Shown here: positions 10,077 to 53,798 of the stretch, one piece after another
How positions within the stretch are numbered: the stretch's first letter is position 1
Layout of the letters: every line of letters begins with the position of its first letter
NCBI GenBank assembly: GCA_018333515.1
Contig: JAGXSZ010000030.1
Coordinates: forward strand, 64,501-128,500
Length of the DNA stretch: 64,000 bases
Direction of reading: 5' to 3'
Origin: Actinomycetota bacterium
Lineage (GTDB): Bacteria > Actinomycetota > Aquicultoria > Aquicultorales > Aquicultoraceae
The notes under the pieces: model-generated
Told to the model about the DNA's origin: nothing
Seen by the model: the letters and a program-made list of their open reading frames with translations, nothing else
Database searches by the model: none
Made by a program: the position numbers and the translations under genes

Positions 10077-10235
10077 CACTCAGAATGACAACTCATAAAA
10101 CGTGTGACGGAATCCTAGCGAGCGCTGTAAAAAATAGGTATAATAGTATTGTTTTTAAGCACATTGTGTTCAACCGGGGGGGTGGCCCAAGAAAATAAAA
10201 ATGACCTGCGGCTAGAGCTTCGGGGCTAAATAGGG

Positions 10236-10470
10236 GATAGAAAGCGCCAGAACCGGCCTAACGCAAAGCAACACCAAGTACGCACTACTCTTGCGATAGG
10301 GCCAGTTGACGAGGGAGAGGTTAATCGAGAAGTCTTCGGGAGAGTCCCGAAGCATTCGGCGGGTGCCTCTCGGCAGGCCACAGTCGTTATGGAATCCACA
10401 AAACCGGCGGGCGACCACCGGGACAAATGGATGCCAGCGTGGCGGTAGAACCGGTATGTCCATATATCGA
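10236..10470 (+). ncRNA. glmS ribozyme (glucosamine-6-phosphate-dependent self-cleaving leader)
   Basis: The leader of glmS contains the conserved ribozyme core in order: GCGCCAGAACCGGC at the cleavage site, GTTGACGAGG, an AGGTTAATCGA segment, CGGCGGGTGCCT, then CACAGTCGT and AAAACCGG-type 3' domain elements. Cleavage is expected between A10243 and G10244. In known cases glucosamine-6-phosphate acts as the cofactor, and the cleaved messenger is degraded, lowering GlmS. A TATAAT-like -10 element at 10139-10144 may start the transcript. The 3' boundary is approximate. Confidence 0.9.
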
Positions 10471-10581
10471 CACCACACCGGGGCTGCTAATCAGGACCAT
10501 TCAGTAATTCAGTAATCCCCTAAGCGACTTCAATTGATTTATTGCCAATATCGTTGTGATGCGATAACGAAGGGAGAACTT

Positions 10582-12405
<1,824 letters not shown>

Positions 12406-50607: not shown

Positions 50608-50637
50608 TTGACAACCCGCTCAAAGGCGTGCTAGCGT
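50608..50637 (+). promoter_or_regulatory. candidate promoter of the T-box operon
   Basis: TTGACA is followed 18 bases later by TAGCGT. The perfect -35 and the position about 50 bases before the T-box stem I make it the likely start of the leader. Confidence 0.45.
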
Positions 50638-50679
50638 AAGACAAAACATATAGCTATTAGCGACAAAGAGAATGAGTAG

Positions 50680-51020
50680 ACCGACAATTAACGCGAGAAG
50701 CGACCTGGGGTTGGTGAAAGCCGGGGCGGTGATGCGGTCGAACATGGTCTCGGAGCTTCCGGAAGAAAGGGCGAGCGCCCAAGTAGAGCCGGACGGGTTT
50801 CCGCCCGTTATGCGGATAAGAGTGCGGCAGGCATCGCCGGCGAAACGCCGGCATCTTAAGCACCAGCGCTAATAAGTGTCGGTGCTAAGCGCGTGGAGTA
50901 TTGCGGCGCGGCGCAGCGCAGTTGAGTAGACGCGCTATCGCAATTAATATGCCTGCTGAATTTGGGTGGTACCACGGGAGTTTCCTCTCGTCCCATACGG
51001 GATGAGGGGTATTTTTATTT
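50680..51020 (+). promoter_or_regulatory. T-box leader, probably methionine-tRNA responsive
   Basis: The leader shows T-box elements in order. Stem I carries a GGTTGGTGAAAGCC apical part. A specifier region GAACATGGTCTCGGAG offers AUG as the most likely specifier codon (50743-50745). The antiterminator T-box GGGTGGTACCACGGG lies at 50964-50978. A terminator hairpin CTCTCGTCCC-atac-GGGATGAGGGG is followed by TATTTTTATTT. Uncharged tRNA is expected to stabilise the antiterminator and allow reading into the homocysteine genes. CAU (His) in the neighbouring register is the alternative; gene content favours AUG. Confidence 0.88.
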
Positions 51021-51084
51021 GCGGGCGGTTTATGCCGGCCGCAACCGACAGGGAGACAGAGTCAAAGGTGAAAAGGAGGTTGAT

Positions 51085-52257
51085 ATGGCCGTCACAAAGA
51101 CTTACGAAGAGATTAATGACAAAATCAGACGGGGCGAAGCGGTAGTCGTAACCGCGGAAGAAATCATCGACATCGTCAAGGAGGACGGTGTGGCGAAAGC
51201 CGCACAAAAGGTAGATGTTATAACAACGGGGACTTTTGGGCCCATGTGCTCGTCGGGCGCGTTCATCAATTTCGGCCACTCCGACCCGCCGATAAAGATG
51301 GCCAAAGTGTGGCTAAACGATGTGCCGGCTTATGCGGGCCTCGCCGCTGTCGACGCCTACGTCGGCGCGACCGAACTCTCCGAGACACTCGGTATGGCGT
51401 ATAGCGGCGCGCACGTCATCGAGGATTTGATTGCCGGCAAGAAAGTAAAATTAGTCGCCACCGCATACGGCACCGATTGCTATCCGCGAAAAGAGATAAC
51501 CACCTATATCAACAAGGATGTGGTAAACGAAGCCTATCTCTTTAACCCGCGAAACGCCTACCAGAACTACGCGGTCGCCGTGAATTCGTCGGCGCGAATT
51601 ATGTACACGTATATGAGCACCCTTATGCCTCGCCTGGGCAACGCGACCTACTGCAGCGCGAGCCGGCTGAGCCCGCTCATTAACGACCCGTTCTACCGTA
51701 CCATCGGTATCGGGACGAGGATATTTATAGGCGGCGCGCAGGGCTATGTGGCCTGGCAGGGGACGCAGTTCAACCCGACGCAGGCGCGGACCGAGAACGG
51801 TGTGCCGGTAGCGCCGGCGGGGACGCTCGCGCTCATCGGTGATTTGAAGCAGATGGAGACCGAATTTATGCGCGCGGCGGTCTTCCACGGCTACGGCGCC
51901 TCGTTGTTTGTGGGCGTGGGCGTGCCGATCCCGGTTCTCGATGAGGATGTAGTCGAAAAAGCGAGCATTGAGGATAAAGATATCTATGCTACGATATTCG
52001 ACTATAGCGTGCGGCAGCGCTCGCGGCCGAATCTGGGCAAGGTTAGTTACGCCCAGCTTCGAAGCGGGAAAATAGAGATAAACGGCAAGCAGGTTCGGAC
52101 CGCCCCGATATCCAGCTACAGCAAGGCGAGAAAGATAGCGGCTACGCTCAAGGAGTGGGTCGAAGCGGGTAAGTTCTTCCTTCAGGAGCCGATTCAGAAT
52201 TTCCCGATGGACAGCACCTTCAAGCCGCTTGAGATCGTGTCAGAGGAGGAGATTTAA
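51085..52257 (+). CDS. homocysteine biosynthesis protein (HcyBio/DUF39)
   Basis: A 390-residue member of the DUF39 family, whose methanogen relatives make homocysteine from aspartate semialdehyde and sulfide. Two cysteines in conserved surroundings are visible, Cys55 in FGPMCSSGAF and Cys132 in YGTDCYPRKE. The ATG at 51085 has AAAGGAGG upstream; the open frame extending to 50962 lies in the T-box and is not coding. The next gene begins at the base after the stop and encodes the NIL/ferredoxin partner, the same pairing as in methanogens. Regulation by a T-box supports a role in methionine supply. Confidence 0.92.
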   Translation: MAVTKTYEEINDKIRRGEAVVVTAEEIIDIVKEDGVAKAAQKVDVITTGTFGPMCSSGAFINFGHSDPPIKMAKVWLNDVPAYAGLAAVDAYVGATELSETLGMAYSGAHVIEDLIAGKKVKLVATAYGTDCYPRKEITTYINKDVVNEAYLFNPRNAYQNYAVAVNSSARIMYTYMSTLMPRLGNATYCSASRLSPLINDPFYRTIGIGTRIFIGGAQGYVAWQGTQFNPTQARTENGVPVAPAGTLALIGDLKQMETEFMRAAVFHGYGASLFVGVGVPIPVLDEDVVEKASIEDKDIYATIFDYSVRQRSRPNLGKVSYAQLRSGKIEINGKQVRTAPISSYSKARKIAATLKEWVEAGKFFLQEPIQNFPMDSTFKPLEIVSEEEI

Positions 52258-52662
52258 ATGGCGAAGAAAAAAATCGTCCTTCACTTCCCGGAAGAGAGCA
52301 TAGGGAAGCCAATCACATATCACCTGGTGAAAGATTACGGTCTCATCCCGAATATCCTGCGCGCGAAGATAGATGAGAACGAAGGAACCCTTGTCATGGA
52401 CTTGGAGGGCCCGAAGGAGAAGATAGGCGAAGCTATCGAGTTTCTCAAAGAGCAGCACGTCACCGTCGAGGAGGCCATCAAAGACATCGTCGTCGACCGG
52501 GTCATCTGCGTCGACTGCGGCTCGTGTGTCGGTGTCTGTCGCCCCGGGGCGCTCTCGATCAACGTCGATGACTGGACGCTCCTCTTCGACCAGGAAGAGT
52601 GCAATTTCTGTCAGCTTTGCATCGACACCTGCCCGGTAAGGGCCATCAAGTTGATGTTCTAA
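52258..52662 (+). CDS. NIL-domain 2x[4Fe-4S] ferredoxin, partner of HcyBio
   Basis: A 134-residue protein with an N-terminal NIL domain (about 1-76), the domain seen in methionine ABC importers, and two [4Fe-4S] motifs at Cys84-Cys94 and Cys115-Cys125. In methanogens the homologous pair is needed for sulfide incorporation into homocysteine; the ferredoxin presumably supplies electrons. Its ATG directly abuts the upstream TAA (TTTAAATG), so the two genes are translationally coupled. Confidence 0.92.
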   Translation: MAKKKIVLHFPEESIGKPITYHLVKDYGLIPNILRAKIDENEGTLVMDLEGPKEKIGEAIEFLKEQHVTVEEAIKDIVVDRVICVDCGSCVGVCRPGALSINVDDWTLLFDQEECNFCQLCIDTCPVRAIKLMF

Positions 52663-52680
52663 CATAAAATGCTATCATGT

Positions 52681-52714
52681 ATACAGGCTTCATCGACTAT
52701 GATGGAGCCTGTAT
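52681..52714 (+). repeat. hairpin between the ferredoxin and methyltransferase genes
   Basis: ATACAGGCT-t-CATC and GATG-g-AGCCTGTAT form a 13-bp stem with an internal mismatch. No T run follows, so it is more likely an mRNA stability or processing element than a terminator; the next gene has its own AAAGGAG site 15 bases on. Confidence 0.6.
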
Positions 52715-52739
52715 CGTGTAAGCATTAAAGGAGACGACC

Positions 52740-53798
52740 GTGTCAATTGAAGCCGGATGTATGGCGACGGCGATAGGAAGCGTACCCCACACCGACCCGG
52801 AGGCCGCGTGCCGGCTGGTCCTCGACAACCTGCGCGAGATACCGATGTGGCCGCAACTGCCGAACATCAGTTACCGGGAGAGCATTTACGCGCAGTACGG
52901 AGAGGGGATGCCGGGTCTTGTAGTAGACGAGGCCGAGCGGAGGTGCTATTTCGACCAGACGCGCGACATAGCCGGCGAGTTCGAAACGCTCTATGAGAGT
53001 TACCTCAACGACGACGCCGACGCGCTCGCGATAAGCGGCGAGTACGCCCGAGGGCTCCACCGGTTTCTCGATATTCTGAAGGATGAGGAGTATCCCGGGA
53101 TAAGGATGCTCAAGGGACACATCGTCGGGCCGCTCACGCTCGGTTTTACCGTGGCCGACCTCGACAAGAAACCCGGGTTCTACGATGATATTCTTCGCGA
53201 GGGTATTCTTAAAACGCTCGCGCTGAAAGGCAAATACCAGGTCGAGAAATTTAGGGAAGTCCGCCCCGAACTTCCGGCGCTCATCTTCATCGATGACCCG
53301 TATCTTATGCAGATAGGCTCCGCGTACGTCAGCCTCAACAGAGACGACGTCATACGGTACTTAGACGAGATAATCAACACCATCGACGCGTTCACCGGCA
53401 TCCACTGCTGCGGCAACACCGACTGGGGCTTGCTGACCGAGACCGCCGTCGACGTCATAAGCTTCGACGCTTACGATTATAGCGAAACCGTGGCGCTCTA
53501 TCCCGCCGAACTGAAGGCGTTTTTGGAGCGCGGGGGCGCGCTGGCCTGGGGTATAGTCCCATCCGGCCTGCCCGACCCCGAGCAGGTAGCCGGCGAGACC
53601 GCCGAAAGCCTCGTCGAGCGGCTTGAAGCCGGCATGAAGCTTCTCGTCGATAAAGGCATCGACAAAGACCTTATCGTCGAGCGCGCGCTCATAACGCCGA
53701 ATTGCGGTACCGGAACCATGAGGCGGGATTTAGCCGAGCGGACGTTTACGCTCACACGCGAAGTCTCCGAGGTTATGCGCGGGCGCTATTTCGGCTAA
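52740..53798 (+). CDS. MetE-core-like zinc methyltransferase, putative folate-independent methionine synthase
   Basis: A 352-residue TIM-barrel protein resembling only the C-terminal catalytic half of MetE. A MetE-type zinc site can be traced: H222xC224 in GIHCCGN, an acidic residue in ISFDAYD (about 243), and Cys322 in ITPNCGTGT. The N-terminal folate-handling half of MetE is absent, as in the short methionine synthases (Mes families) thought to take methyl groups from corrinoid proteins. Its place after T-box-controlled homocysteine genes supports a homocysteine methylase. The exact Mes family cannot be told here. Start GTG behind AAAGGAG. Confidence 0.75.
   Translation: MSIEAGCMATAIGSVPHTDPEAACRLVLDNLREIPMWPQLPNISYRESIYAQYGEGMPGLVVDEAERRCYFDQTRDIAGEFETLYESYLNDDADALAISGEYARGLHRFLDILKDEEYPGIRMLKGHIVGPLTLGFTVADLDKKPGFYDDILREGILKTLALKGKYQVEKFREVRPELPALIFIDDPYLMQIGSAYVSLNRDDVIRYLDEIINTIDAFTGIHCCGNTDWGLLTETAVDVISFDAYDYSETVALYPAELKAFLERGGALAWGIVPSGLPDPEQVAGETAESLVERLEAGMKLLVDKGIDKDLIVERALITPNCGTGTMRRDLAERTFTLTREVSEVMRGRYFG

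Follow-up and report, generated by a model that had tools for sequence, protein, structure and literature searches.

In Methanosarcina (MA1821-MA1822-MA1715) and Desulfovibrio, homocysteine is formed from aspartate semialdehyde and sulfide by a pathway that uses HcyBio (DUF39), a NIL/ferredoxin protein and COG2122 (PMC5764234, PMC12068725). COG2122 is needed for this pathway in Desulfovibrio, and at least one further homocysteine or methionine pathway is said to await discovery (PMC5764234). The core methionine synthase MesB is known from Dehalococcoides mccartyi (cbdbA481; PMC7005905), and every MesB-containing proteome has AcsC or AcsD (PMC7857596). Methionine-specific T-box leaders are known from the metICFE-mdh operon of Staphylococcus aureus and from Lactobacillales (PMC3771891, PMC4239095). 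Here, we discuss a locus in a 64,000-nucleotide window of an Actinomycetota genome (assembly GCA_018333515.1, contig JAGXSZ010000030.1, positions 64,501 to 128,500), in which a T-box leader precedes genes for HcyBio, a NIL/ferredoxin partner and a MesB-type protein (mes), all on the + strand; coordinates below are those of the window. We read it, with a probability of about 0.86, as a methionine operon controlled by the charging of methionyl-tRNA and using the HcyBio/NIL and MesB route. The source genome (2.33 Mb, 40 contigs, completeness 100%, contamination 0.25%) has Candidatus Aquicultor secundus (class Ca. Aquicultoria, Actinomycetota) as its closest named relative judged by the third protein (73%), and appears to belong to a Ca. 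Aquicultor-like, uncultured anaerobic actinobacterium.

The leader (50654–50998, stem I to antiterminator) matched the Rfam T-box covariance model RF00230 over its full length (model positions 1–219) with 97.7 bits against a gathering threshold of 93 (E 3e-20). It is of the canonical, transcriptional class, with a specifier codon, a UGGN bulge and a mutually exclusive terminator and antiterminator all present, and its stem I is kept with compensatory changes across 5 genomes. In the model alignment, the antiterminator (50964–50994) carries the T-box bulge UGGU, which would pair with the 5'-ACCA-3' of uncharged tRNA, and it has the 5' arm of the terminator in common. The intrinsic terminator (50984–51020) reads CCTCTCGTCCC-ATAC-GGGATGAGGGG and then TATTTTTATTT; its 11-bp stem (50984–51009, 7 GC) is followed by a U-rich tail (−19.8 kcal/mol, z −5.3). 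The covariance match and the terminator bear out the T-box that the initial annotation, a reading of the bare sequence, had placed before these genes. A probable but weak promoter, read by eye, lies upstream (50608–50637: TTGACA at 50608–50613, 18 nt, TAGCGT at 50632–50637). The consensus promoter scan did not list it; TTGACA-N17-TAGCTT stands at the equivalent place in two related loci (L011 and L012).

The 3' strand of the specifier loop (GAACATGG, 50740–50747) reads GAAC-AUG-G and closes on UCUC, with AUG at 50744–50746 according to both the model alignment and a codon register for which about 60 T-boxes of the same class served as calibration. To this end, a stem I model derived from nine leaders was run over T-box loci in 36 genomes from the class. 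At this loop position, AUC occurs before ileS, CUC before leuS and leuA, UUC before pheS, GGC before glyQ, UGG before trpE/trpG and GUC before ilvD. The window genome has five T-boxes in all, the others preceding ilvD (GAAC-GUC-G), two trp operons (GAG-UGG-G) and an aminotransferase gene (GAAG-GCC-A). The bulge was UGGU in 13 of 13 AUG rows (11 distinct sites), UGGC in 16 of 17 Trp rows and UGGA in the glyQ leader. Because the discriminator base of tRNA-Met is A, UGGU in the AUG leaders fits tRNA-Met; the stretches covered contained no tRNA genes from which to read this base in the host itself. Moreover, the base 5' of AUG varies (C or U; G in other Actinomycetota) while AUG is constant. Judged by these comparisons, the specifier of the window leader is the methionine codon AUG, as had been thought likeliest; alignment, class-wide register and bulge agree on it.

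The first gene (51085–52257, 390 amino acids) encodes an HcyBio/DUF39 protein without a CBS domain, which matched PF01837 over its whole length (E 3.6e-158) and whose Cys55 and Cys132 are conserved in 49 of 49 sequences. Its stop codon (52255–52257) abuts the ATG (52258) of the second gene (52258–52662, 134 amino acids), whose product combines a NIL domain (PF09383, E 2.4e-17) with Fer4 and has two CxxCxxCxxxC motifs for two [4Fe-4S] clusters. These matches uphold the first naming of the pair; the homocysteine route assigned to it is indeed known in methanogens, but also in bacteria, not in methanogens alone (PMC5764234). The full-length match, both cysteines and the NIL/ferredoxin partner identify the first protein as HcyBio of the COG1900a homocysteine type, a predicted L-aspartate semialdehyde sulfurtransferase core. 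Its assignment to methanogenesis marker 16 (MMP16), the coenzyme M synthase paralogue, was rejected, as TIGR03287 gave 129.6 bits against a cut-off of 363.95.

Elsewhere in the window genome, a protein matched NCBIfam PRK04334, which we take to be COG2122/UPF0280 (G000:C40:85357-86067, E 4.1e-74). We compared 36 genomes of the class, including the window genome (G000), from the family Aquicultoraceae and other families. HcyBio and COG2122 occurred together in 19, HcyBio only in 2, COG2122 only in 3 and neither in 12 (p 2.6e-5, relatedness uncorrected). Of the genomes with COG2122 only, G003, of the same genus, has a contig end some 400 nt from mes and its NIL gene is cut off, so the absence of HcyBio is an assembly break, and G001 is only 77% complete. 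In another genome (G019, contig C100), HcyBio occurs with two full-length Cys_Met pyridoxal phosphate (PLP) enzymes and without COG2122, which departs from the either/or pattern.

The third gene (52740–53798) encodes 352 amino acids with no Pfam match; NCBIfam returned only a weak match to the archaeal methionine synthase PRK00957 (E 5e-6, 25.8 bits against a cut-off of 258), and a PDB sequence search gave chance matches only. The predicted fold is confident (pLDDT 94), and its top PDB matches are MetE chains (TM about 0.58), followed by MesD (3rpd) among others. The protein is a lone barrel of the MetE C-terminal type without the folate half, as foreseen in the initial annotation. The zinc ligands H222, C224 and D243 occur in 81 of 81 homologues and C322 in 80, with one gap. 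The MetE-like HxC...C site proposed earlier stood as far as its His and Cys ligands are concerned, but the fourth ligand is Asp, unlike the Glu of MetE, and this replacement is a mark of MesB (PMC7857596). The Dehalococcoidia homologues sampled are 41–47% identical to the window protein, and in several the same zinc columns are residues 215, 217, 236 and 312, the numbers published for the characterised Dehalococcoides core-MetE (PMC7005905). Homologues, zinc ligands and predicted fold support a place among the methionine synthases, as a core methionine synthase of MesB type with predicted activity. As a separate observation, cobalamin binding in core-MetE has been proposed to involve an HxxG motif; where the window protein has His127 of this motif, 67 of the 81 homologues, most of those from Dehalococcoidia included, have Gln.

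Profile searches of the window genome, rated 100% complete, gave no sign of a classical methionine pathway; the initial annotation had named this check, and it came out in its favour. PF01717 (Meth_synt_2, for MetE/MesA) matched neither the third protein nor any other in the genome, and PF02574 (S-methyl_trans, for MetH) had no match, although in a set of 14 control genomes the two profiles matched in 10 and 9, respectively. The five weak PF01053 (Cys_Met) matches are DegT, a cysteine desulfurase-like protein, a class V aminotransferase, HisC and SelA, leaving no Cys_Met PLP enzyme of the MetB/C/Y/Z kind. The genes fhs, RACo, folD, acsD, cooS, acsB and acsC lie in one cluster, with the corrinoid iron-sulfur protein (CoFeSP) AcsC/AcsD on contig C13; the acetyl-CoA synthase/corrinoid protein is likely the methyl donor. 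Since MetE, MetH and Cys_Met enzymes were not found and the CoFeSP cluster is present, methionine from sulfide via these genes is the best-supported reading. The complete sulfide-to-methionine unit claimed at first holds in that HcyBio, NIL and core methionine synthase stand together; it is not self-contained, because COG2122 (C40) and the methylated corrinoid protein (C13) are encoded elsewhere.

The coupling is conserved in Aquicultoraceae and occurs in two further families of the class. All eight HcyBio-bearing Aquicultoraceae genomes (G000, G002 and G004–G009) have an AUG T-box before HcyBio-NIL-mes, the order is the same in one genome of another family (G030), and G026 carries a second HcyBio copy that also follows an AUG T-box. 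In total, the class has 10 loci with T-box and HcyBio, with AUG in all 10 and NIL and mes next in line in 9. In the HcyBio tree, the eight family members group together, but the tree does not settle where the other two copies with a T-box belong. Our searches revealed no T-box at the HcyBio genes of the remaining families of the class.

We also sampled 50 MesB-bearing genomes of several phyla, 28 of which have HcyBio. An earlier result that T-boxes are lacking outside Aquicultoria, obtained with the regular expression GGGTGGNACC and the Rfam gathering threshold, was overturned by the stem I model, which gave matches with AUG 5' of HcyBio in six more genomes, all Actinomycetota (five of them GAAG-AUG-G). 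In Ca. Solincola and other Actinomycetota (L200, L203, L205, L212 and L217), T-box-like HcyBio leaders below the Rfam gathering threshold combine GAAG-AUG-G with an intrinsic terminator, but GGGUGAUACGG or another sequence replaces the expected GGGUGGUACCG in 4 of the 5, L217 keeping UGGU. The canonical T-boxes of Aquicultoria, together with these Geothermincolia-type leaders, which have stem I AUG, stem III and a terminator and have lost the standard UGGN in 4 of 5, tentatively suggest that in deep Actinomycetota homocysteine synthesis from sulfide might in general be controlled by methionyl-tRNA charging, although we consider this generalization somewhat doubtful. If true, the Geothermincolia-type leaders would sense whether the tRNA is charged in an altered way.

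Further observations concern other leaders. In L204 (629–891), the HcyBio leader has the specifier AUG but the bulge UGGC, mismatching the discriminator expected for tRNA-Met. L203, L200 and L205 share a conserved short stretch (GGTGGTGGTGG..TATGGATCATG.GCAGCCTCCC) between terminator and HcyBio, which could be a short leader open reading frame or an anti-Shine-Dalgarno arm. In G021, of the same class (L137, 1501–1799, and L197, 645–7908), an AUG T-box (GAAC-AUG-C, bulge UGGU) precedes a threonine-synthase-like gene, and genes for a sulfite reductase-like protein, AprA and sulfate adenylyltransferase come next. This genome (89% complete) had no HcyBio, MetY-type or MesB match, and the threonine-synthase-like enzyme might be a homocysteine synthase. 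T-boxes with the Ala codon GCC before a PLP aminotransferase gene, in the window genome (C13, 12136–12390; L003) and at equivalent places in several class genomes, suggest an alanine-related role for that enzyme.

From these elements, we infer tRNA binding, switching, the enzyme activities and the methyl donor, as follows. Transcription would start upstream of 50654, and the leader RNA would bind tRNA-Met through the AUG specifier. With uncharged tRNA-Met, the ACCA end would pair with the UGGU bulge, allowing the antiterminator to form and transcription to continue into the operon, whereas charged tRNA-Met would allow the terminator (50984–51020) to form. HcyBio, probably through a Cys55 persulfide, would work with NIL/ferredoxin and COG2122 to convert aspartate semialdehyde and sulfide to homocysteine, and the NIL domain may add methionine feedback. 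The His-Cys-Asp-Cys zinc of the third protein would bind homocysteine, and a corrinoid protein would donate the methyl group that turns it into methionine; AcsC/AcsD of the Wood-Ljungdahl pathway is the likeliest donor. The sulfide-to-methionine route would thereby switch on when methionine-charged tRNA is short.

Several points weigh against this interpretation. AUG by itself does not separate initiator from elongator tRNA-Met; the MesB identity rests on homologues and not on the characterised sequence itself; and the sampled loci outside Aquicultoria showed no T-box near mesB, so that the coupling is lineage-specific. In addition, mes starts 77 nt past the NIL gene, behind a stable hairpin to which no role is assigned (52676–52718, −26.2 kcal/mol, z −7.8), and positions 52651–52678 weakly resemble a promoter (there were 2 matches of this kind, with 1.3 expected), making a separate transcription start possible. 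Accordingly, the three genes are less tightly packed than first described, close packing being true of the abutting first and second. The T-box might then govern HcyBio and NIL only, with mes, under a promoter of its own, a neighbour rather than part of one regulated unit. We regard this as unlikely, though it is the best surviving alternative, since strand and gene order are unchanged in 9 genomes, the hairpin lacks a U tract, and the gap is just 36–54 nt in two class members without a T-box. The hairpin is kept within the genus, while some other genera have unrelated hairpins and at least one has none. Read-through into the third gene is presumed.

It is improbable that the third protein makes no methionine and instead acts on another thiol or in catabolism, as some other corrinoid methyltransferase from the MetE/UroD superfamily. 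The lack of a Pfam match, fold matches that include uroporphyrinogen decarboxylases and the methyltransferase 4ay7 of Methanosarcina, and the existence of MesB-like paralogues of unclear function (PMC7857596) would accord with it, but the gene sits behind homocysteine genes under a methionine T-box in 9 genomes, every zinc ligand is kept, and the genome searches found no other methionine synthase. A Trp (UGG, +1 base) or His (CAU, −1 base) specifier with an accidental link to the genes is most improbable of all and was rejected on bulge and frame: although both triplets lie within the loop GAACAUGG and one-base frame shifts are a recognised ambiguity (PMC7778990), the UGGU of the class HcyBio leaders throughout, set against the UGGC of the GAG-UGG-G Trp leaders in the same genome, argues strongly against Trp, and the −1 frame is not kept (CAU, UAU, GAU).

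Away from the operon, the window also contains a glmS ribozyme (RF00234, 88.3 bits; 10232–10445) directly 5' of the glmS gene (10534–12405), an ordinary arrangement in an actinobacterial genome.

Every component of the system is already known, and T-box control of the HcyBio/MesB pathway would be the new link; the open-licence literature searched held no T-box connected with DUF39, COG1900, HcyBio, MesB or core methionine synthase, which is not proof of novelty. Two non-classical anaerobe enzymes, one leading from sulfide to homocysteine and the other a corrinoid-fed methionine synthase, would be joined in one unit regulated by tRNA-Met charging. This coupling lends independent regulatory support to both functions as methionine synthesis in uncultured organisms, and AUG T-boxes could serve as a pointer to unrecognised homocysteine and methionine genes.

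Compared with the Methanosarcina and Desulfovibrio pathway, the same three families are present here (PMC5764234, PMC12068725), and the difference lies in the T-box control and in COG2122 being on a separate contig. Cys55 and Cys132 compare with the nearly universal Cys54 (essential) and Cys131 (not essential) in Methanosarcina (PMC12068725), whereas the HcyBio of M. acetivorans has a CBS domain, described as sensing S-adenosylmethionine, that the window protein lacks. With D. mccartyi MesB/core-MetE, the third protein shares size, lone barrel, His-Cys-Asp-Cys zinc site and AcsC/AcsD in the genome (PMC7005905, PMC7857596), but its gene is placed in a homocysteine operon behind a T-box. The staphylococcal and Lactobacillales leaders are likewise transcriptional, have an AUG specifier and serve methionine synthesis, that of S. 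aureus preferring initiator tRNA (PMC3771891, PMC4239095); they act on classical metI/C/F/E or on transport genes, whereas the targets described here, in Actinomycetota, are HcyBio, NIL/ferredoxin and core methionine synthase.

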